Source: Flavihumibacter fluminis
GTDB taxonomy: Bacteria; Bacteroidota; Bacteroidia; Chitinophagales; Chitinophagaceae
Assembly (NCBI RefSeq): GCF_021491375.1
Contig: NZ_JAKEVY010000004.1
Coordinates: 248,001 to 312,000, forward strand
Direction of reading: 5' to 3'
Length of the DNA: 64,000 bases
Under the pieces are notes generated by a model. The model ran no database searches, was not told the DNA's origin, and saw only the letters and a list, made by a program, of their open reading frames with translations. Positions 23,998 through 64,000 of the stretch are shown in pieces. A program made the position numbers and the translations under genes. The first letter of the stretch is position 1, and each line of letters starts with the position of its first letter.

Positions 23998-24400
23998 ATA
24001 CTTCAGGATTTTCCAAATATGCCAGGATTTTTTCCTGTGCGGTTTTTAATTCCTCCGGACTCACTTTCAGTTTTGGCCTGGTGAAATTCAGGTCGTCTGC
24101 AGATTGCAACGGTACCAAATGCAGGTGTGCATGTGGTACTTCCAGTCCGATTACAGCAGAACCTACCCGCTGACAGGGAAATGCCTGTTCAATAGCGCGC
24201 GCGATGGGTTTTGCAAAAACCAGGATTTCCGCCAGGTAGGCATCCGGCACATCATAGAATTTATCTACTTCCATTTTTGGCACGACCAGCACATGGCCGT
24301 GTGTCATGGGGAATACATCCAGAAAGGCGTAGAATTTGTCATTCTCAGCGATCTTATAAGAGGGAATTTCGCCGTTGATCAACTTGGTGAATATGGTCAT
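23981..24400 (-). CDS. HIT-family nucleotide-binding protein
   Basis: The 139-residue protein has the histidine triad HAHLH at 90-94 followed by LVPL, and the N-terminal FTKLINGEIPSYKIAE of the HINT/Hit branch. These enzymes hydrolyse AMP-linked phosphoramidates or adenylated compounds in the cytosol. The start overlaps the stop of the upstream gene by 4 bp (minus-strand ATGA, 24397-24400), so both are on one transcript and share the promoter at 25109-25176. Confidence 0.9.
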   Translation of the reverse strand: MTIFTKLINGEIPSYKIAENDKFYAFLDVFPMTHGHVLVVPKMEVDKFYDVPDAYLAEILVFAKPIARAIEQAFPCQRVGSAVIGLEVPHAHLHLVPLQSADDLNFTRPKLKVSPEELKTAQEKILAYLENPEVFRPVS

Positions 24401-25104
24401 CTTGAGGTGATTGTTTGCAAATCTGCCCCCAATGACATCGTAATTTTTATATCCCGGGTTTCCCAGGTATCAAAAAATGGCTGCCAGCGTCCCATGTTGT
24501 AGAACATGCCAAAAACTTCATTCTCAAGGTTCTCGGTCCAGAGTTCATCTCTTGACGGACATTCCACATGGGTCACTTTGCCAGATGCATTGATGGTGAC
24601 CACAAAGGTATGATTCCAGTTGGGAATGGCATTCGCTTTATAATAGGCAGCACTGAAATAATCGATCAGGTTTTGAGTAGCGAACATGTACACCGGCTCG
24701 ATCTTCACAGCATACCAGCGCTTAAGTTCGGCCAGTTCTGCTGAGCCAAAACCTGCGGGAATGTGATCCAGTTCGATCCGGAAGCGATCTTCATTTTGCA
24801 CAAAAGCACCGCTAATTTTTTCACCCTTGTGATAAAAGATAAAATGCTCAAGGCTATCGGTGGGGGTTAAGCGAACCAGTACAGTATCCCCTTCATTAAA
24901 GAATACCCGGGGGCCTACCACTTTATCATTCTGAAACTGGCACTGCATCAGCGCATTGCCTTTTTTGTCAAAGAAAAGCCAGTCGCCCTGCTTGCGACCT
25001 TTTTTATCAATGGCATTCAGCTGCAAGCCATTCCATTTAATGGTCTTCTGTGCCTGAATGGCCAAGGGGAAAAATAACAGCATGAAAAGGAGTCGCCAAA
25101 TCAT
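24397..25104 (-). CDS. Secreted MORN-like/TonB-C-like protein, unknown function
   Basis: The 235-residue protein has a signal peptide (cleavage near AIQAQ, residue 19). Residues about 35-70 (DKKGRKQGDWLFFDKKGN and a repeat of this pattern) resemble MORN/YwqK-type repeats. The C-terminal part (FVVTINASGKVTHVECPS, later GRWQPFFDTW) resembles the TonB C-terminal fold without a membrane anchor. No function is known. It is the first gene of a two-gene operon with the HIT gene. Its promoter carries five 11-bp repeats, which places it in the same putative regulon as the TonB receptor and porin genes near 62 kb. Confidence 0.65.
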   Translation of the reverse strand: MIWRLLFMLLFFPLAIQAQKTIKWNGLQLNAIDKKGRKQGDWLFFDKKGNALMQCQFQNDKVVGPRVFFNEGDTVLVRLTPTDSLEHFIFYHKGEKISGAFVQNEDRFRIELDHIPAGFGSAELAELKRWYAVKIEPVYMFATQNLIDYFSAAYYKANAIPNWNHTFVVTINASGKVTHVECPSRDELWTENLENEVFGMFYNMGRWQPFFDTWETRDIKITMSLGADLQTITSR

Positions 25105-25108
25105 GGCG

Positions 25109-25176
25109 CAAAACTATCAGGCCAGTGTTACCAGAATGTATCCCCAATGTTACCGCAAGGTTACCGAATTGTTACC
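25109..25176 (-). promoter_or_regulatory. Promoter with five 11-bp direct repeats (putative PhoB-type operator A)
   Basis: Read on the plus strand, hexamers start at 25127, 25138, 25149, 25160 and 25171: GTTACC, GTATCC, GTTACC, GTTACC, GTTACC, each followed by a 5-bp spacer, so the period is exactly 11 bp. On the minus strand the nearest unit ends 10 bp upstream of TAGTTTTG (25109-25116), a perfect TAnnTTTG element. The ATG of the 24397-25104 gene follows after 4 bp. The repeats take the place of a -33 element, the usual layout of an OmpR/PhoB-type activator site. The last unit overlaps the stop codon of the upstream rhamnosidase gene. Confidence 0.7.
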
Positions 25177-52994: not shown

Positions 52995-53092
52995 AGATAG
53001 GAGCCTTGGATTCAAATTTACACAATGCAACACCTGCATAACGTTTCAGTAACACTAAAATTGCCCTTAACAATTTCATAATCGGCTGAAAA

Positions 53093-53138: not shown

Positions 53139-53825
53139 ATGGATAACAGGGATAAAAAGATTCTCATCGCCGATGACGAACCGGATATTTTAGAAATCAT
53201 CCAGTACAATCTGCAGGCGGAAGGATACACCGTTTACACTGCCAAAGACGGTGATGAAGCCCTGATGAGAGCCAAACAGATCAAACCCGACCTGATTATT
53301 CTGGACATCATGATGCCCAAAAAGAATGGGGTGGAAGTTTGTGAGTTACTTAGATCCCAACCGGCCTACAAGGATACCCTTATCATTTTTCTTACAGCGC
53401 TGAGTGATGAATCCTCCCAGTTGAAAGGGCTCGACACGGGTGCAGATGATTATATAAACAAGCCCATTAGCCCGAAATTACTAACCAGCCGGGTGAATGC
53501 CCTTTTCCGCCGGGTTACCAAAAAAGAGGAAGCCGGAACCGGTGTGCTGATGATGGACAATCTGGTGATCGATCCCGTTAAGTTCGTGGTAATGGTGGAC
53601 GACAAGGAGATAACCCTCGCCAAAAAAGAATTTGAGTTATTATATTTACTCGCTTCCCGTCCGGGTCGGGTATTCCTTCGGAACGAAATCCTGAACCAGG
53701 TTTGGGGCAATGAAGTGATCGTAGGAGACCGCACCATTGATGTGCATATTCGTAAAATCCGGCAAAAACTGGGATTAGATTGTATTACCACCGTGAAAGG
53801 GGTTGGATACAAGTTTGATTTATGA
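53139..53825 (+). CDS. PhoB/OmpR-family response regulator
   Basis: The 228-residue protein has a receiver domain (acidic pocket in IADDEPD, phosphoacceptor Asp in LIILDIMMP, conserved Thr in FLTAL and Lys in YINKPIS) and a C-terminal winged-helix OmpR/PhoB domain (about 130-228, with RTIDVHIRKIRQKLG and VKGVGYKFDL). The stop overlaps the kinase start as ATGA. Within Bacteroidota this pair resembles PhoB/PhoR, and it is a plausible activator of the 11-bp repeat promoters in this window, since OmpR/PhoB proteins bind direct repeats with an 11-bp period. Confidence 0.9.
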   Translation: MDNRDKKILIADDEPDILEIIQYNLQAEGYTVYTAKDGDEALMRAKQIKPDLIILDIMMPKKNGVEVCELLRSQPAYKDTLIIFLTALSDESSQLKGLDTGADDYINKPISPKLLTSRVNALFRRVTKKEEAGTGVLMMDNLVIDPVKFVVMVDDKEITLAKKEFELLYLLASRPGRVFLRNEILNQVWGNEVIVGDRTIDVHIRKIRQKLGLDCITTVKGVGYKFDL

Positions 53826-54877
53826 TCCAATTCAAAAATTTATCACCAAGGCAGGTGAGTGCTGTGCTGGCATTTGCCATTTCGGCATTAGTGGGGCTCG
53901 CTAATTTCATCCTGGTGGACGACTGGCTGATCGCGCTTGCCTCCTTTGCAGTTTTATTTCTGGTTGCCTACCTGCTCATTTTTTATTTTTTGCAGCAATT
54001 CATCTATCGCCGGATCAAGCTTATTTATAAGTTCATTTACCAGACCAAGGCAACCAAAAGGGAGGAGTTTTATAACAAATACATTATACCTCAGAAAAGT
54101 ATTGATGAGGTTAAGGAAGACGTGGAGAAATGGGCGGTACAGCGGCAGGGAGAGATCGAGGTATTACGTAAGAATGAGGCATTTCGAAAGGAGTTTCTAC
54201 AGAACCTGGCACATGAATTCAAGACTCCGATTTTTGCTATACAGGGATATATCGATACACTTCTAGGGGGCGCGATGGAAAACCCGGATGTTCGTAAACG
54301 TTTTCTGGAAAATACCAGCCGAAATGTTGATCGCCTGGTAAACCTCATGAATGACCTGGATGAAATATCACGTTTAGAAAGCGGAGAGCAGGTATTGTAC
54401 AAACAGTATTTTGTGGTGCAGGAACTGATCCGCGAAGTTATTGAATCACTCTCCATTAAACTAAGTCAAAAGGAAATTACAGCTTCTATTAAAAAAGGGT
54501 GTGAGGCGCCTGTTTATGTTTTTGCAGACAAGGAGCGGATCCGTCAGGTTATGATTAACCTGATATCCAATGCCACCAAGTACGGCAAGCCTGGCGGCAG
54601 TATAGTTATCAGTGTGTACAATACAGATGAGTTTAAAGTATTGGTGGAGGTAAGCGATGACGGAATTGGAATCGAAGAAGCACATTTGCCGCGCATTTTT
54701 GAACGGTTTTACCGTACTGATAAAGCTCGTAGTCGCGATAAAGGCGGCACAGGTCTGGGCCTTGCTATCTGTAAACATATTATTGAAGCTCATGGCGAAT
54801 CCATGCACGTACGAAGCAAACCGGACGTTGGAACCACCATTGGATTCACACTTTCGTCTACAAGAGGAGAAGGATAG
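53822..54877 (+). CDS. PhoR-like sensor histidine kinase
   Basis: The 351-residue membrane kinase has two N-terminal helices (about 14-31 and 36-57), no large periplasmic sensor, then a linker and the catalytic core. The H-box is LAHEFKTP with the phosphorylated His, the N-box NLISNATKYGK, G1 DDGIGI and G2 GGTGLGLAI. The short sensor is typical of PhoR proteins that sense phosphate through PstSCAB/PhoU rather than directly. It is translationally coupled to the response regulator by a 4-bp overlap. Confidence 0.9.
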   Translation: MIQFKNLSPRQVSAVLAFAISALVGLANFILVDDWLIALASFAVLFLVAYLLIFYFLQQFIYRRIKLIYKFIYQTKATKREEFYNKYIIPQKSIDEVKEDVEKWAVQRQGEIEVLRKNEAFRKEFLQNLAHEFKTPIFAIQGYIDTLLGGAMENPDVRKRFLENTSRNVDRLVNLMNDLDEISRLESGEQVLYKQYFVVQELIREVIESLSIKLSQKEITASIKKGCEAPVYVFADKERIRQVMINLISNATKYGKPGGSIVISVYNTDEFKVLVEVSDDGIGIEEAHLPRIFERFYRTDKARSRDKGGTGLGLAICKHIIEAHGESMHVRSKPDVGTTIGFTLSSTRGEG

Positions 54878-57297: not shown

Positions 57298-57717
57298 CTA
57301 AGGCGCAATCGCTTCTTTCTTCCAGGTCTGCAATTGTTGACGGTTTGAAGCCGACATGGGAAAATGATAAAGCCGCGCATTTTTAATGTACCTGAAATGA
57401 GGAACCTGGCAATCCAGGTTAAAATAAACGGTATTGTAAATTGCTCCATCAATAAAGCAATAGATTTTACCCTGCCGGGTGCAGGATACTGGCGCAATGG
57501 TATCATAACGCAGATCGTTGATCAAAGCTTTTATTTTTGAAGGATCCGAATTAACCAGGTAGGTAAAAAAACGATCTTCATCTTCCTTATCATAGAAAAG
57601 CACCTGAATGCTGTCAACCGCAGCCATTTGTGGAAACAGGCTGTCTCCTATTGCATTTTTCTTTTCGGTACAGGAAAGAAATGTGATCAGAAGTCCGAAA
57701 AACAGGCAGTATTTCAT
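57298..57717 (-). CDS. Small lipoprotein of unknown function
   Basis: The 139-residue protein has a signal with lipobox TFLSC (Cys at 16), so it is predicted to be a lipoprotein. The mature part has several Cys and Tyr (APVSCTRQGKIYCFIDG) and looks like a small alpha/beta domain. No family is recognised. The -7 element TATTTTTG is 5 bp before the ATG, so the mRNA would have virtually no leader. Confidence 0.6.
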   Translation of the reverse strand: MKYCLFFGLLITFLSCTEKKNAIGDSLFPQMAAVDSIQVLFYDKEDEDRFFTYLVNSDPSKIKALINDLRYDTIAPVSCTRQGKIYCFIDGAIYNTVYFNLDCQVPHFRYIKNARLYHFPMSASNRQQLQTWKKEAIAP

Positions 57718-57781: not shown

Positions 57782-59140
57782 TTAATAAACGTTCGCACGC
57801 GGGTTAAAGCTGGACCAGCCTTGCGCCCAGTTGGAAGTTCCGAAAGCACCAATATAGGAAGTGGTGGTGAAGAAGCTGTCCATACCGGTAAAGCTTGCAC
57901 CTGTCAAGGCAGGAGAACCGGCTTTGGGTAGGAAATTAGGAGCTGTTAAATTGAACGGATCATTTAACTGAACTGCTTCACGGGATGCTAATGTTCTGTT
58001 ACCCTCTGATTCTGCTTTTGTCTGAAGAATATCATTTGTAGCAAATACTGTCTTAGCACCATCATCCTGTACATTGTAAGGTCTGGTGTAAACTGCCACA
58101 ATATTATTCTTGAATTCAGATAAGCCATCTTTATAAGCCTGGGCAGTTGCTGCAGATTCCATTGAGAAACCAGCACGGCGATGACCAATCAACAAAGAAT
58201 TGTTCAGTACAAAACGGGTAGCTCTTCTCCAGCGATTGGAAAATCCATGGTTTGAATTAGAACCGGTTGTATCATAAGGTCCGATCAAAGTAAGGTTGGA
58301 AAGGTAAGGGCGGGTAAACGGCTCAGCATTGGAACCTGATCCATCGTTATCACACTCGATCCCATTGGCCTGGTCAGTATCAGCTGGTTTATCACGCAGA
58401 GATACTGCAAATTGAATTTTACCCTGGTAACCAAAATCGAAGTCAAAGTCATCGTCCATGGTACCAAAAGCGATCAGGTTTTTACAGTTTACTGTACCAC
58501 CAAAGAACTCATATGCATCATCTGCACCATAAGAAACCTGTACGTTTTCAATAATTGTACCGGAGCCTACTCCACCCAGCGTTAATCCATTGATCTCGGA
58601 TCCTGGCTCGGCAGCAATACCAGAAAATTCAATACGCACATAACGAAGAGTTCCACTATTATCAGCAGCATTGGTACCACCATAAGGGCGGTTAACACCA
58701 CCTTCGATAATTGGAGCCGGAGACTGCGGGCGGTTAGTTGGTGCATTACCCAACAGGATGATTCCACCCCAATCGCCAGGCGCACGCTCACCTGCAGGAC
58801 GGCCGGAAGTAAATACAATCGGAGCATCAGGACGACCATCAGCAATCAGGCGGGAACCACGCTCAATGATCAGGGCACCTTTATCGCTTACATCACTTTT
58901 AATTATGGTGCCTGGTTCGATAGTCAGCACAGCGCCATTGTTTACATACACATATCCTTTCAGGGTCCAGGTTCCACGAGTCAGGGTTACGCTTTCATCA
59001 ATGGTACCGTTTAAAACACGGGCAGTGGTATCCGTACCGCCACCTGGATTGTTAATTGTATCACCCACTTCTACCTTTATACAGGAAGTAATAGTTACCG
59101 CACTAATCGCGATGAGGGCAAATTGTTTTACCAATTTCAT
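57782..59140 (-). CDS. Lipoprotein partner of the TonB receptor, beta-helix-like
   Basis: The 452-residue protein has a signal ending in a lipobox-like ITSC (Cys at about 20). The mature sequence has repeating short strands (GYVYVNNGAVLTIEPGTIIK, GALIIERGSRLIADGRPDAP; core LTIEPGTIIK) as in right-handed beta-helix surface proteins. It starts 39 bp after the TonB receptor gene and has its own terminator, so the two form an operon. In Bacteroidota such lipoproteins commonly cap or feed the adjacent receptor. Ligand unknown, but the upstream 11-bp repeats suggest phosphate control. Confidence 0.7.
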   Translation of the reverse strand: MKLVKQFALIAISAVTITSCIKVEVGDTINNPGGGTDTTARVLNGTIDESVTLTRGTWTLKGYVYVNNGAVLTIEPGTIIKSDVSDKGALIIERGSRLIADGRPDAPIVFTSGRPAGERAPGDWGGIILLGNAPTNRPQSPAPIIEGGVNRPYGGTNAADNSGTLRYVRIEFSGIAAEPGSEINGLTLGGVGSGTIIENVQVSYGADDAYEFFGGTVNCKNLIAFGTMDDDFDFDFGYQGKIQFAVSLRDKPADTDQANGIECDNDGSGSNAEPFTRPYLSNLTLIGPYDTTGSNSNHGFSNRWRRATRFVLNNSLLIGHRRAGFSMESAATAQAYKDGLSEFKNNIVAVYTRPYNVQDDGAKTVFATNDILQTKAESEGNRTLASREAVQLNDPFNLTAPNFLPKAGSPALTGASFTGMDSFFTTTSYIGAFGTSNWAQGWSSFNPRANVY

Positions 59141-59179: not shown

Positions 59180-61972
59180 TTATTTTCTTAAATCGAAATC
59201 ATAGGTGAAGCCAATTGAAATATTGGTACCAGGACGATAAGAACTAAAGAGTCGATCTCCATTCCCTTTATTGAATTCTTTGCTACCTCCTACATTCTCA
59301 AAGAGATAAATCTCATTGTTAAGGATGTCTGAGAAGGTTAGTTTCAATTCTCCCTTTTTCTTCAATATCCTTTTGGATAACTGGAAGTCAAGCAGGTGAC
59401 GGGGACGCTCATATATATCCGGGAACTCACCGTTACCTACCAATGCAAGGCGGGGTCCTATTCGGTTATACAATACTGTTGCATTTAATCCTTTATCGGT
59501 TGAATACTGCAGCCCGGCATTGATCAGGTAGGGAGATTGTCCCTGTATCGGACGGTTAGAACTGATAGTTTGACCAGTTGATGTTGCATCCGGGAAGCTT
59601 ACATCCGAAAACAGGTAAGTGAAGTTTCCGAAAGCCGTCATGTTATCGAAGAATTTGCTATCCCCCAGGAAATCCATGTTTTTGCGAATCTCCAATTCTG
59701 CACCATAAGTATTCGCTTCAGCAGCATTCTGATAGAAGTATAAACGGCGGTCGGCATTGGAACCCGGATCCAGTCGGAATTCGATAGGATCAGTGAAACG
59801 CTTGAAGAAAGCACCAATTGTAAAGGCTTCTCCCGCTCTTGGATAAATCTCATAACGAAGGTCCAGGTTCAGGATTTTGGTTCGCTTCAGATCCGGGTTA
59901 CCGGAAACGCCATAGTTTGACTCATAATCGAAGAACTGGAAGGGAGCAATCTCACGAAACTCCGGACGGGCAACAGTTTGGAATGCGGCAAAACGAAGGT
60001 TCTGAGTGGTATTGATTGAATAGGTCAGGTTTACAGAAGGTAAGAAGTCGTAGGTTTCTGTATTCACATCGATGCGTTTGGCAGTTACATCTTTCGATGT
60101 CAGATACTGCTCAAAAAACTCCAGACGGCCACCCCAAACCAAACGAACTTTATCACTCAATTTATTATCGAACATCAGGAACCCGGCATTGATAGCTGAT
60201 ATACCAAAATACTTATCAGAGTTTCCGGTAAAATCATCCACAACATAACCATTGATACCAAAATTATTGCGGTTAAAAATCTGGTCGTATGGTAAACTCA
60301 CGAGATCATCATTGAAATTCGGTAGGCTCGCTTCGCGGTACCGGAAAATTCTAGACTGGAAATCACGGAAGCGTACAATCGTAGAACCACCTAATTTGAA
60401 ATTCTGCTTCTCACCAAAAAGTTCGAAGGGAATGGTAAATGCACCGGAAGCTGTTACCGTATGATCCTGCAGATCTGACCAGAAACGACGGGAATCATCC
60501 GGATCGATTTGTTTCACATTACTTCCAAATGCCTGTGTGTACTGCTGCGTTCTAAGATCAGGCTGATCCCTAGTAACCAGTGAATACCCGGCGTTCCAGC
60601 GGAATTTTGCTTTAGCAATTGATAGTTGATGATCACCCTCTAACTGGCTACTGAAAAAGTTACGCTGGTTTAAGAAGGAAGAGTAGAAGTCCACATTCTG
60701 GTTACGGTTATTATTCACACCACCCCGTATGAAGTAATTGTCATCGTAGAAACGGTTGAAAATATTCTTAAAGGAAATTTTATTTTTTTTCTGTGAATAG
60801 GTCAGGTTGATCAGGGCTCCCAGGTTGGTCTGGTAACGATTCTGACGGTCTTCAAACTGGAAAATCGGGGTTCCGTCATTTTGCGTAAACTGGCGATCTA
60901 CATTGTAACGAATCATTGAGTTACGATACACTACAGAGGCAATCAAACCCAGTTTGGCATCATTTTTCAAGACTCTGGAACTACCGTAGGCAATATTATA
61001 GGTCATGATGGGAAGTGCCGTAGTGTTGCGCTGTGCATATACATCATCGCGGAACAGCTTTGAATCTCCTATCTGATCGTTCACATTCTGTCCGCGGTAT
61101 TCCTGGGGAGAGCCCGGGAAACCTGCAGGAAATTTACGAGTGCCATCATCAAAACCCAGCCAATCAGTGGATGTTCTGGGGTTGCTGATAAAATCCTTAA
61201 ACGTAGAGTTGGTATTGAATCCGAACTGAACGCCAACAGAAAGGAAATCTTTGGTAGGAATATCTTTTGTTTGTACCTGGATCAAACCACCTGCAAATTC
61301 ACCGGTCAGCTCAGGAGTAGCCGTTTTGTTGATAATGATATTATCAATCATATTGGCAGGAATCACATCGAAAGAGAAGGCCTTACGGTCTGGTTCAGAC
61401 GAAGGAAGCTGGGCATTGTTGATAAAGGCCGCGTTGTATCGATCACTCAAACCCCGAACGATAACAAATTTATTATCCTGGATAGAAGCACCGCTCACCC
61501 GCTTCAATACTTCACCAGTTGTACGGTCGGGTGTTCTTTTGATCAGGTCGGCAGCAATACCACTCGATACTGCTGTATTATTACGTTGCAGGTTAATCAG
61601 TGCAGAAGTAGTTTCACGACGTACGGAAGTTCTTACAACTACTTCTCCCAACTCTGATTTCGTTTCAAGCACAATGGTAACATTGTTCTCTACACCTTCT
61701 TTTAATTCAACCTCCTCAACCAGTTTGGTATTATAACCTGCACTGGATACTCTTAATACATATTTTTTCCCTGCAGCCAGGTTGAGGCTGAACCGACCTT
61801 CCACATCTGCAGCAACCCGTTGTTGAGCACCTTCAATTGCAATGGTGGCACCGGGTACAGGTTCATTTTGGGTATTGATTACTTTACCACTGAGTTTGAT
61901 TGTTGTTTGTGCTGCGGCATGCAGTCCGGTCATCAACACCAACAACAACAGGTAGGTAAATTTTTTGCTCAC
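59180..61972 (-). CDS. TonB-dependent outer-membrane receptor
   Basis: The protein has 930 residues from GTG 61972 (MSKKFTYLLLLVLMTG); the frame reaches 62011, but the predicted -7 element at 61995-62002 excludes that. A signal peptide precedes a carboxypeptidase-regulatory-like domain (about 25-110, VINTQNEPVPGATIAI), then the plug (KRVSGASIQDNKFVIVRGLSD region; core FVIVRGLSDRYNAAF) and the barrel ending in an aromatic-Phe-type C-terminus. With the lipoprotein gene downstream it forms an uptake unit. Six 11-bp repeats lie upstream of the promoter. Confidence 0.9.
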   Translation of the reverse strand: MSKKFTYLLLLVLMTGLHAAAQTTIKLSGKVINTQNEPVPGATIAIEGAQQRVAADVEGRFSLNLAAGKKYVLRVSSAGYNTKLVEEVELKEGVENNVTIVLETKSELGEVVVRTSVRRETTSALINLQRNNTAVSSGIAADLIKRTPDRTTGEVLKRVSGASIQDNKFVIVRGLSDRYNAAFINNAQLPSSEPDRKAFSFDVIPANMIDNIIINKTATPELTGEFAGGLIQVQTKDIPTKDFLSVGVQFGFNTNSTFKDFISNPRTSTDWLGFDDGTRKFPAGFPGSPQEYRGQNVNDQIGDSKLFRDDVYAQRNTTALPIMTYNIAYGSSRVLKNDAKLGLIASVVYRNSMIRYNVDRQFTQNDGTPIFQFEDRQNRYQTNLGALINLTYSQKKNKISFKNIFNRFYDDNYFIRGGVNNNRNQNVDFYSSFLNQRNFFSSQLEGDHQLSIAKAKFRWNAGYSLVTRDQPDLRTQQYTQAFGSNVKQIDPDDSRRFWSDLQDHTVTASGAFTIPFELFGEKQNFKLGGSTIVRFRDFQSRIFRYREASLPNFNDDLVSLPYDQIFNRNNFGINGYVVDDFTGNSDKYFGISAINAGFLMFDNKLSDKVRLVWGGRLEFFEQYLTSKDVTAKRIDVNTETYDFLPSVNLTYSINTTQNLRFAAFQTVARPEFREIAPFQFFDYESNYGVSGNPDLKRTKILNLDLRYEIYPRAGEAFTIGAFFKRFTDPIEFRLDPGSNADRRLYFYQNAAEANTYGAELEIRKNMDFLGDSKFFDNMTAFGNFTYLFSDVSFPDATSTGQTISSNRPIQGQSPYLINAGLQYSTDKGLNATVLYNRIGPRLALVGNGEFPDIYERPRHLLDFQLSKRILKKKGELKLTFSDILNNEIYLFENVGGSKEFNKGNGDRLFSSYRPGTNISIGFTYDFDLRK

Positions 61973-61994
61973 AACTAAGGGATTTATTTGCGGG

Positions 61995-62078
61995 CAAAAG
62001 TAGAAGGGCAATATTATCGCCCTGTTATTGGAGCGTTAACGAATTGTAACTCCAATGTTACCGGAATATTAAGGAGGC
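61995..62078 (-). promoter_or_regulatory. Promoter with six 11-bp direct repeats (putative PhoB-type operator B)
   Basis: Plus-strand hexamers start at 62013, 62024, 62035, 62046, 62057 and 62068: ATTATC, GTTATT, GTTAAC, GTAACT, GTTACC, ATTAAG, each followed by 5 bp, so all are in 11-bp phase. The nearest unit ends 10 bp before TACTTTTG (61995-62002 on the minus strand), the same distance as in operator A. The start codon of the TonB receptor follows 22 bp after the -7 element. The central four units are the best matches. Confidence 0.72.
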
Positions 62079-62102: not shown

Positions 62103-63314
62103 TTAGAAATTCAATTGCGCCTGCAGGCGCAGCAAACGACCACTTTGTTTGTTATCAGGATTGGCCGCATCTTCGTAACGGCGATTAGAAAACACATACA
62201 TAGCTACCAGCTCAACATTTCGGTTGATCTGCCATTCGGCACCCAGTTCCAGTTCATTCACCTGGTAACTACGCGCATCGAGCTCAAATTTTTTACCTCC
62301 CTGATAATAATGGTAACGCGCGAAAGGAATCAACACCATTTTACCCGGCTTCATCATATAGTTAGCGATAAAATAACCTCCCTGCAATTTTTTTTGCTGA
62401 ATTGTATTAGTGGCCGGATCATATTCTGGACCTGTTCCAACATTATATTCTGCCTGGATACCAAAAGGTTGTGGGTATAATGTAAATGACGCGGCAACCC
62501 GTTCATCTTTATAACTTGCCTCGGGGTTAATTAGTTTGACGCCGCGGGTGGTATCGGCAACAGTGTATTTTCCGGTGTAAGCCTGAATGCCAGCTTCGAT
62601 GATTTGCCCGTTGGACAATTGGGTAGGCCATGAAAACCGGCCGACCACATGCACCTGGCGATTCTGGTCGGGTCGATTGGCAGATTGTCCGTTAAACACG
62701 CCAAAACCTGCAACGCCATAATCCCCGGAGCCCTTGAGTCCATCCTCCGTGAGACGACTCAATAACTCTCGCTTTTCTGCAGGGGCCCAATATAAAAAAG
62801 CACCGATATCCCGCTCGTTAACAAAAGAGGAGTTGATACCATCGCTACGATCCAGGGGTAAGCGATTGGAGCTGCTCTGCATACCTTCAAATCCGTAAGG
62901 AATTTTACTTTGACCAACCCGAATGCGCCAGGTCTTTTTTTCATCAAAAGCAAGATCAAAATAGGCATCGCGGATCTGACCATAATTGAGTCCTCCACCG
63001 GCAGAGGAGGCAAAATCAGGTTGTATATATATAGACACCCGATCAGAAATATTTCCCTGGATTATGACCCGGACCCTGCGAAGAAAAAATCCTCCATTAC
63101 CTCCCCAACTACGGTCACATTGCTCACATTTTAAGTTAGGATTGGTTTCCAGCAGGCGATTGTACCGTGTTTGAACATAGCCCCGGATCGTGAATGTCTC
63201 AAACCACTTCTTCTTGGTAACGGCTACTGTTGTCACCGAATCCTGGCCCGACACATTAAAAAAAACAGTCAACCCAATCAGAATCAAGCCAAAAACACGG
63301 TAAAACGAAGCCAT
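62103..63314 (-). CDS. Phosphate-selective porin O/P family protein
   Basis: The 403-residue protein has a signal peptide (cleavage near VSGQ, residue 24) and a strand-rich 16- to 18-strand barrel with the family segments GYVQTRYNRL, GFFLRRVRVIIQGNI, RVGQSKIPYGFEGMQS and a C-terminal LRLQAQLNF. OprO/OprP-type porins take up phosphate or polyphosphate across the outer membrane. The downstream DUF47 gene (divergent) fits a phosphate role. A weak GC hairpin (62075-62088) lies 14 bp after the stop. Confidence 0.85.
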   Translation of the reverse strand: MASFYRVFGLILIGLTVFFNVSGQDSVTTVAVTKKKWFETFTIRGYVQTRYNRLLETNPNLKCEQCDRSWGGNGGFFLRRVRVIIQGNISDRVSIYIQPDFASSAGGGLNYGQIRDAYFDLAFDEKKTWRIRVGQSKIPYGFEGMQSSSNRLPLDRSDGINSSFVNERDIGAFLYWAPAEKRELLSRLTEDGLKGSGDYGVAGFGVFNGQSANRPDQNRQVHVVGRFSWPTQLSNGQIIEAGIQAYTGKYTVADTTRGVKLINPEASYKDERVAASFTLYPQPFGIQAEYNVGTGPEYDPATNTIQQKKLQGGYFIANYMMKPGKMVLIPFARYHYYQGGKKFELDARSYQVNELELGAEWQINRNVELVAMYVFSNRRYEDAANPDNKQSGRLLRLQAQLNF

Positions 63315-63322
63315 TTACTGGA

Positions 63323-63355
63323 GTTAATTTAATGTTACCAAATTATTAACGGCGG
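63323..63355. repeat. Three 11-bp direct repeats next to the porin start codon (operator C)
   Basis: GTTAATTTAAT, GTTACCAAATT and ATTAACGGCGG begin at 63323, 63334 and 63345, exactly 11 bp apart. They lie 8-40 bp upstream of the porin ATG, too close for a -7 element between them and the gene, so their relation to the porin promoter is unclear. Confidence 0.6.
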
Positions 63356-63384
63356 CAAAGGTACCCGTCAAATACAGGCGGGGC

Positions 63385-63417
63385 GGGTACGCAATGTTAA
63401 GAAATTATTACCAAAGC
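63385..63417. repeat. Two to three 11-bp direct repeats in the porin/DUF47 spacer (operator D)
   Basis: GTTAAGAAATT at 63396 and ATTACCAAAGC at 63407 are 11 bp apart; a weaker GGGTAC at 63385 keeps the phase. Toward the porin, an imperfect -7-like TGTATTTG (63369-63376, minus strand) lies 8 bp away. Toward DUF47, the -7 element is 36 bp away from the last core hexamer. Confidence 0.5.
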
Positions 63418-63470: not shown

Positions 63471-64000
63471 ATGGCACTGTCCTCGATCCTGAAACTGTTC
63501 ACTCCCAAGGATAAAGTCTTTTATTCTCTTTTTGAAGAAGTAGCAAATACTGTTGCCAAAATGGGCGCTCTGATGAAAGATGTGGTGAGTGAATCGGACT
63601 TCGACAAGAGAGCGGGGCTGATTTCAAAAATGGAGGATCTTGAACATGTGAATGATGATCTGACCCATAAAATCTTCACTGAGCTCGGCAGAAATTTCAT
63701 TACACCATTCGATCGCGAGGACATACACTACCTGGCAACGGCACTGGACGACATTTGTGATTATATATTCGCGTCAGCCAAAAAGATCAACTTCTATAAG
63801 GTGAACCCGAATGATCCCGGCATCCAGAAAATGGCTGACCTGATTGAGCAGGGAGCAGAGCATATCAAAAATGCAGTAATTGAACTGCGGAACATGAAAA
63901 ACATGCGCCAGATCACCGATGCACTGGTAAAAGTGAACAGCATTGAAAACCAGGCGGACGATATTTTTGATCTGAGCATTGATCGACTCTTTGAAACCGA
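63471..64000 (+). CDS. DUF47 (PhoU-like) phosphate transport regulator, N-terminal part
   Basis: The frame opens at ATG 63471 and runs past the window end; 176 codons are visible of about 215 expected. The sequence (MALSSILKLFTPKDKVFY, LFEEVANTVAKMGALM, DREDIHYLATALDDICDYIF with core DREDIHYLATALDDI, NQADDIFDLSIDRLF) is that of DUF47 proteins, helical bundles related to PhoU. They usually precede and regulate a PiT-type inorganic phosphate transporter, which I would expect just outside the window. It is divergent from the porin gene. Confidence 0.85.
   Translation, partial: MALSSILKLFTPKDKVFYSLFEEVANTVAKMGALMKDVVSESDFDKRAGLISKMEDLEHVNDDLTHKIFTELGRNFITPFDREDIHYLATALDDICDYIFASAKKINFYKVNPNDPGIQKMADLIEQGAEHIKNAVIELRNMKNMRQITDALVKVNSIENQADDIFDLSIDRLFET

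Follow-up and report, generated by a model that had tools for sequence, protein, structure and literature searches.

A PHO-box-like repeat array in conserved promoter register before a TonB receptor-lipoprotein operon of Flavihumibacter fluminis

Which signal switches on the genes for a TonB-dependent receptor and its neighbouring lipoprotein in Flavihumibacter fluminis, and what do the two proteins take in? In the 64,000-nucleotide stretch of DNA analysed here (the window), a preliminary description had pointed to six in-phase 11-bp repeats upstream of the receptor gene and had proposed a phosphate function. We located the array of direct repeats at 62007..62072 on the minus strand. Its units, TTAATATTCCG, GTAACATTGGA, GTTACAATTCG, TTAACGCTCCA, ATAACAGGGCG and ATAATATTGCC, are TTAACA-like and start at 62072, 62061, 62050, 62039, 62028 and 62017, respectively, a spacing of 11 bp. 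On the minus strand from 62072 to 61995, the six units are followed by CTTC and then by TACTTTTG (61995..62002, minus strand), a TAnnTTTG sequence which, from its letters and from the conserved register described below, we take to be the Bacteroidota -7 promoter element. From the start of the final unit to the TTTG of TACTTTTG there is a step of 19 bp, and the 6-mer of this unit ends 9 bp before TACTTTTG, rather than 10 bp as given in the preliminary description.

The units were scored against a consensus set beforehand, TTHAYA, that of B. subtilis, whose TTAACA type the array unit resembles. Over six units the array scored 31/36, above the highest value (29) in 100 dinucleotide shuffles of the window, which together with the coordinates of the unit starts (62072 to 62017) bears out the count of six in phase. 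Over five units it scored 26, which 0/100 shuffles reached (maximum 25), and over four units 21, a score equalled by 6/100 shuffles; thus the length of the array matters.

The preliminary description had made its reading depend on conservation of the repeats upstream of orthologous receptors. Two sets of loci were examined, which overlap (G031:C1 and L132) and are not independent, and whose counts ignore shared descent. In the first set, receptor matches at E <= 1e-100 were found in 50 of 79 family genomes and 30 loci were read. The best four-unit upstream score was at least 19 in 29/30 of them, while letter-shuffled versions of these upstreams reached 19 in 36/1500 cases and in-gene windows in 2/210. 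Period 11 alone stood out, with a mean of 20.8 against 16.1–16.7 for periods 7–10 and 12–16, and the step from the array to the best-placed TTTG was 8 modulo 11 in 27/30. The second set held 80 loci among the matches listed, of 577 relatives, of which one without upstream DNA (L142) was dropped, leaving 79. Among these listed matches, a score of at least 19 was reached in 75/79, compared with 103/655 for the regions ahead of the remaining genes at these loci. With the 19/30-bp register fixed, 64 of the 79 listed loci scored at least 18, whereas each of ten shifted registers gave 0–5/79 and other genes at the fixed register 33/655; several of the top-scoring upstreams among the latter were in fact the start of the lipoprotein gene. 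Position and register are thus kept upstream of orthologous receptors, as the preliminary description had expected. By order, the register was found among the matches listed in 34/39 Chitinophagales, 20/26 Sphingobacteriales, 2/4 Flavobacteriales, 1/2 Saprospiraceae and 7/8 unclear loci, the assignment being a rough hand grouping of record titles that left 8/79 unclear. The 15/79 listed loci lacking the register at score 18 fell mostly (10/15) outside the hand-made Chitinophagales group. The closest receptor among the matches listed was that of Flavihumibacter solisilvae, with 70% identity.

The repeats could also be a chance similarity in AT-rich intergenic DNA, as the four-unit score was equalled by 6/100 shuffles and 103/655 other upstreams reach 19. 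However, with a six-unit score above 100/100 shuffles, a single period and a conserved register, we regard this as extremely improbable.

Which other genes stand behind such an array was examined with R1, a sequence model built on the promoters of 25 of the 30 relatives (two of the window's genus and three out of register were left out). R1 was run on the F. fluminis genome itself, with scores obtained for 150 of the 1208 first-look candidates. Among these, a site at 25 kb of the window ranked first (45.1 bits, E 3e-11) and the 62-kb array second (62030-62073, 27.1–27.4 bits), with the second piece of the latter (61994-62027, 19.7–19.9 bits) at rank four. Rank three (23.0 bits) had genes for a metallophosphoesterase and a glycosyltransferase behind it, which resemble the lipid-remodelling genes (PlcP and glycosyltransferase) in the regulon published for F. 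johnsoniae (PMC8115612). Weaker matches at dnaB (E 0.035), oprP (E 0.06) and the polyphosphate kinase gene (E 0.33) would not stand alone; the last is a weak three-unit array upstream of the gene (G000:C21:790266-790296, L073, E 0.33).

In 10 relatives, with 150 first-look candidates scored per genome, R1 gave 45 matches at E <=0.003; loci were available for 30 of them, and 21 of these were inspected downstream. The genes behind them included phoX (in two genomes by eye, confirmed by Pfam for one), metallophosphoesterase, DUF47, lipoprotein, other TonB-receptor-like genes and dnaB, along with several of no clear interpretation. Genes of the phosphate regulon thus have the array in front of them both in this genome and in its relatives, weakly so for polyphosphate kinase (E 0.33), and the 62-kb site has both the 11-bp direct-repeat period and the fixed promoter register of a PHO box. 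In several relatives the lipoprotein gene has a PHO array of its own, in the same register or detected by R1, apart from that of the receptor (L100, L103, L104 and L148; also L169 and L171). A three-unit pattern with <=3 mismatches was tried as evidence and dropped, the genome having 7 matches to it and 5 to its reversed control; 6/7 of the matches fall at the 25-kb, 62-kb and phoB sites.

The 25-kb site is a PHO-box array of five units (25121..25175, minus strand). It precedes a gene for a 235-aa protein (24397..25104, minus strand), with no Pfam or NCBIfam match, which is followed by a HIT-domain gene (PF01230). The geometry had been described as the same at both sites; the 19-bp step from the final unit to TTTG is indeed equal, but the 25-kb array has five units and not six. 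The two regions had also been called otherwise dissimilar, and a BLASTN comparison of 401 bp from each gave a single alignment at E <0.01 (35 bp, 77%), which lies within the arrays. Against the preset consensus, the 25-kb array scored 23/30 for five units, with a shuffle mean of 22.9, and is not beyond chance; its strength comes from R1, a model built from relatives (45.1 bits), rather than from the consensus. Both the array and the 235-aa gene are kept in one same-genus genome. At this gene TTTG lies four bases ahead of ATG, so that the mRNA may be leaderless.

A candidate regulator is encoded in the window itself. A PhoB-type response regulator of the OmpR family (53139..53825, plus strand) is the genome's best match to the PhoB models, at scores below the curated cut-offs (229.6 of 296.2 bits and 224.8 of 270 bits). 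It is followed by a PhoR-type histidine kinase (53822..54877, plus strand) with HisKA and HATPase_c domains, which falls below the cut-off of the PnpS/PhoR models. This phoBR pair lies 2.4 kb beyond the last lipoprotein gene of the receptor operon, behind a DUF5690 gene and an endonuclease/exonuclease/phosphatase-family gene. Two weak units (53067..53088, plus strand; a weak R1 match) lie 52 and 41 bp before the TTTG (53119) of the phoB promoter.

Judged from sequence, we hold with high confidence that the 62-kb repeats are a PHO box that activates the receptor operon, and the PhoB whose gene lies 8 kb away is very probably its regulator; both the role of this PhoB as binder and the activating effect of its binding are inferred. 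The array might instead be bound by another OmpR-family regulator, responding to envelope or metal stress, with its phosphate neighbours coincidental, since the genome encodes five or more further OmpR-type proteins that match the PhoB model over its full length, and the PhoB of this locus is under the curated cut-off. This is improbable, however, as the array precedes phosphorus genes across genomes (phoX, metallophosphoesterase with glycosyltransferase, DUF47 and the FII-like lipoprotein), a PhoB gene lies close to that of the receptor in 12/80 listed loci, many of them cut short, and the PHO boxes of other bacteria are likewise built of 11-nt direct repeats (PMC4415409). The conserved array and register and the phosphorus genes behind the array strongly support phosphate control.

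With PhoB as the regulator, low phosphate would lead the PhoR-type kinase (53822-54877) to phosphorylate the PhoB-type regulator (53139-53825), which would then bind the 11-bp repeats head to tail and recruit RNA polymerase to the TAnnTTTG promoter. The final repeat would replace the upstream element of the promoter; bound PhoB could stand in for that element because the 19-bp step puts the final unit there. The TonB receptor, a beta-helix-like surface lipoprotein and probably a 139-aa lipoprotein would be switched on as one operon, and their products would bind organic phosphorus material on the outside of the cell and import it.

Further phosphate genes adjoin the array on its other side. 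An OprP-like porin gene (Porin_O_P; 62103..63314, minus strand; PF07396, 114 bits) is preceded by TACCTTTG (63356-63363). A three-unit array (63323..63350, minus strand; R1 15.6 bits) lies between TACCTTTG and the oprP start, and two more units (63390..63411, minus strand; R1 63391-63414, 11.9 bits, weak) lie 41 and 52 bp ahead of TTTG, in register. Units thus lie on both sides of the TACCTTTG element. Perhaps this two-sided arrangement bears on the listing of OprP of F. johnsoniae as not induced (PMC8115612). The unit pairs of oprP and phoB are in a common phase with TTTG, although two cases prove little. Divergent from oprP is a DUF47 (PhoU_div) gene (63471..63998, plus strand; PF01865); the gene after it, which falls just beyond the end of the window, encodes a Pit phosphate permease (PF01384, L051:714-1772). 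Sensing coupled to Pst was considered and rejected on a search for its PstB component, as the best PstB match in the genome reached 146.7 of 343.2 bits, while 13/14 control genomes pass the cut-off. That PstB does not exceed the cut-off here fits a statement in the literature that PstSABC is missing from plant-associated Bacteroidetes (PMC8115612). The adjoining DUF47-Pit pair is a candidate for phosphate sensing by PhoR.

The receptor gene (59180..61972, minus strand) encodes 930 aa with CarboxypepD_reg-like (PF13715), Plug (PF07715) and OMP_b-brl_3 (PF14905) domains. Its start would be the GTG at 61972, ahead of the signal peptide, and not the TTG of the automatic ORF call. The lipoprotein gene (57782..59140, minus strand) begins 39 bp after it and encodes an FII/ElpS-like protein of 452 aa, whose Cys20 is invariant in an alignment of 11 sequences and whose predicted fold is mostly beta and beta-helix-like (model pLDDT 86). 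The third gene (57298..57717, minus strand), an ORF for a small putative lipoprotein of 139 aa, probably forms one operon with the other two; weak homologues of its product lie downstream of the FII-like gene in 5/11 family relatives and in 3/80 listed loci. The lipoprotein gene is directly downstream of the receptor gene in 10 of 11 family relatives, with DUF47 nearby in 9/11. Among the 80 listed receptor loci, 73 have the lipoprotein gene (72 downstream, 1 upstream), 25 have DUF47 and 12 have PhoB. A SusC/SusD reading was tried and rejected: receptor residues 25-113 match TIGR04056 at 48.6 of 368 bits, and the lipoprotein, with no Pfam family and a mostly beta predicted fold, shows no sign of being a SusD partner.

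The lipoprotein matched no Pfam family, and searches of the PDB by sequence gave no relative of it at E 1 and partial matches for the receptor. Among solved folds, 0/213 matches reached E 0.001, the best being pectate lyase Pel9A at E 0.012. The nearest, all weak, were beta-helix enzymes (pectate lyase, alginate epimerase, chondroitinase) and tailspikes. As only weak neighbours were found, no enzyme activity is assigned to the lipoprotein.

By analogy, the operon products most likely take in phosphorus-bearing organic matter, a reading based on the F. johnsoniae data and on the conservation of the pair; for the receptor itself to take up a phosphorus compound, we put the chances at even. It is a nearly equal possibility that receptor and lipoprotein act on a phosphate-carrying polymer (cell-wall glycan or nucleic acid) or aid a phosphatase, and that phosphate freed outside enters through OprP and Pit. 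The beta-helix-like prediction, with pectate lyase, alginate epimerase and chondroitinase as nearest folds (0/213 at E 0.001), is consistent with this, as are the OprP and DUF47-Pit genes adjoining the operon and the report that overexpressed ElpS raises secreted phosphatase activity, with the suggestion that it is no phosphatase itself (PMC2996285). Against it, the receptor-lipoprotein pairing is kept in most Bacteroidota loci examined and in two proteobacterial records. TonB receptors also normally import, which we count on the same side. Whether by uptake or by release outside the cell, a role of the operon in phosphorus is well supported, but it is already known from comparable systems.

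An array in another position was found at dnaB, for which a search gave 57 matches, spread over 56 of 60 genomes, and 30 upstreams were read. Arrays scoring at least 19 were present in 12 of these 30 (this genome included) against 0/150 in-gene windows, and they start 22–26 nt after the start of a TATATTCG-like -7 box in 11/11 cases with a recognised box. In F. fluminis the PHO-like array lies between the TATATTCG-like box and the dnaB start (G000:C36:141679-141721, outside the window; L068 and L189; relatives L190-L218). R1, although derived from receptor promoters, matched dnaB at E <0.003 in 4/10 relatives. On the other hand, 18/30 upstreams had no such array, a score of 19 is met by 103/655 other upstreams, the gap between the mean scores of the forward (17.8) and reverse (17.1) strands is small, the match in this genome is weak (E 0.035), and the counts ignore shared descent. 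An array downstream of the presumed dnaB start site suggests repression. We therefore propose, tentatively and as a doubtful case, that in this family one PHO array could have opposite effects by position, activating phosphorus scavenging upstream of TAnnTTTG and acting as a roadblock that lowers dnaB transcription directly downstream of TATATTCG; PhoB would in this way slow DNA replication once the cell is short of phosphate for making nucleotides. A literature search on dnaB with PhoB returned, in the text available, nothing on phosphate control of dnaB. If true, the arrangement may couple the replicative helicase directly to phosphate status.

The gene content of the locus is ordinary, resembling a phosphate-induced Flavobacterium operon, and it is the conserved layout of the switch that is worth recording. 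It provides a usable definition of a Bacteroidota PHO box, [GT]TAA[CT]A units every 11 bp with the final unit 19 bp before TTTG, which allows prediction of the phosphate regulon in sequenced members of the group. It also ties to phosphorus an uncharacterised receptor-lipoprotein pair of Bacteroidota and proteobacterial records. No such definition was found in the literature searched, including the available text of PMC3547664, PMC9723704 and PMC4415409; the term 'Pho box' occurs nowhere in the main text of PMC8115612, and 'consensus' has 0 occurrences in that of PMC3547664.

The preliminary description thus went in the correct direction with its phosphate idea, which had been published before. 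Its view that a phosphorus compound would be an unusual substrate class for TonB receptors does not hold, as several TonB-dependent transporters of F. johnsoniae are reported to be induced on phosphate depletion (Lidbury et al. 2020, PMC8115612), with organic phosphorus predicted as the target of their clusters. The closest of these is PUSIV at the phoBR locus (Table 1 rows Fjoh_0541-0546 and 0549), in which Fjoh_0545 and the lipoprotein gene Fjoh_0546 are listed as strongly induced on phosphate depletion, with 8.02 and 9.91 in the FC column. As the text of that paper gives three transporters as phosphate-depletion-only and its table labels four rows so, depletion-only induction is not claimed here for Fjoh_0545 itself. 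The F. fluminis locus likewise has a receptor with Plug, CarbopepD_reg_2 and OMP_b-brl_3 domains, the three Pfam domains of Fjoh_0545, beside a lipoprotein (FII) and phoBR, with OprP in the neighbourhood; the match of this pair to Fjoh_0545/0546 was made on Pfam domains and gene neighbourhood rather than on sequence. Unlike in PUSIV, the receptor gene here has OprP, DUF47 and Pit next to it, and phoBR lies 2.4 kb past the small lipoprotein gene.

ElpS, a surface lipoprotein of Caulobacter crescentus that goes together with the TonB receptor Cc0171, is made on phosphate starvation, while cc0171 is expressed in rich and poor media alike (PMC2996285). According to the authors, the two genes co-occur across genomes, and ElpS overexpression gives more secreted phosphatase activity, ElpS itself being suggested to be no phosphatase. 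The pair described here is likewise a TonB receptor and a lipoprotein, likened to that of Caulobacter by gene context and not by sequence; the ElpS link of the lipoprotein rests on this context plus a statement in PMC8115612. Of 20 listed records with lipoprotein homologues, 4 were inspected. An FII-like homologue lies directly upstream of a TonB receptor in Indioceanicola, with type II secretion genes next, and in Pseudoalteromonas (receptors 25–26% identical to this one), whereas in F. fluminis the gene order is reversed and type II secretion genes are absent. The Marinobacter record had no annotated TonB receptor within 6 kb on either side of the homologue, and the Phocaeicola record carried no annotation.

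In Bacteroides fragilis, PhoB binds the pstC promoter and controls the pst operon, and low phosphate or phoB affects the polyphosphate kinase and porin O genes (PMC3547664); in F. fluminis, by contrast, PstB does not pass the cut-off. Finally, the PHO boxes of E. coli, B. subtilis and Streptomyces consist of 11-nt direct repeats that the effector domains of PhoB occupy head to tail (PMC4415409), and, unlike the two-unit box described there, the array reported here has four to six units, locked 19 bp before TTTG.
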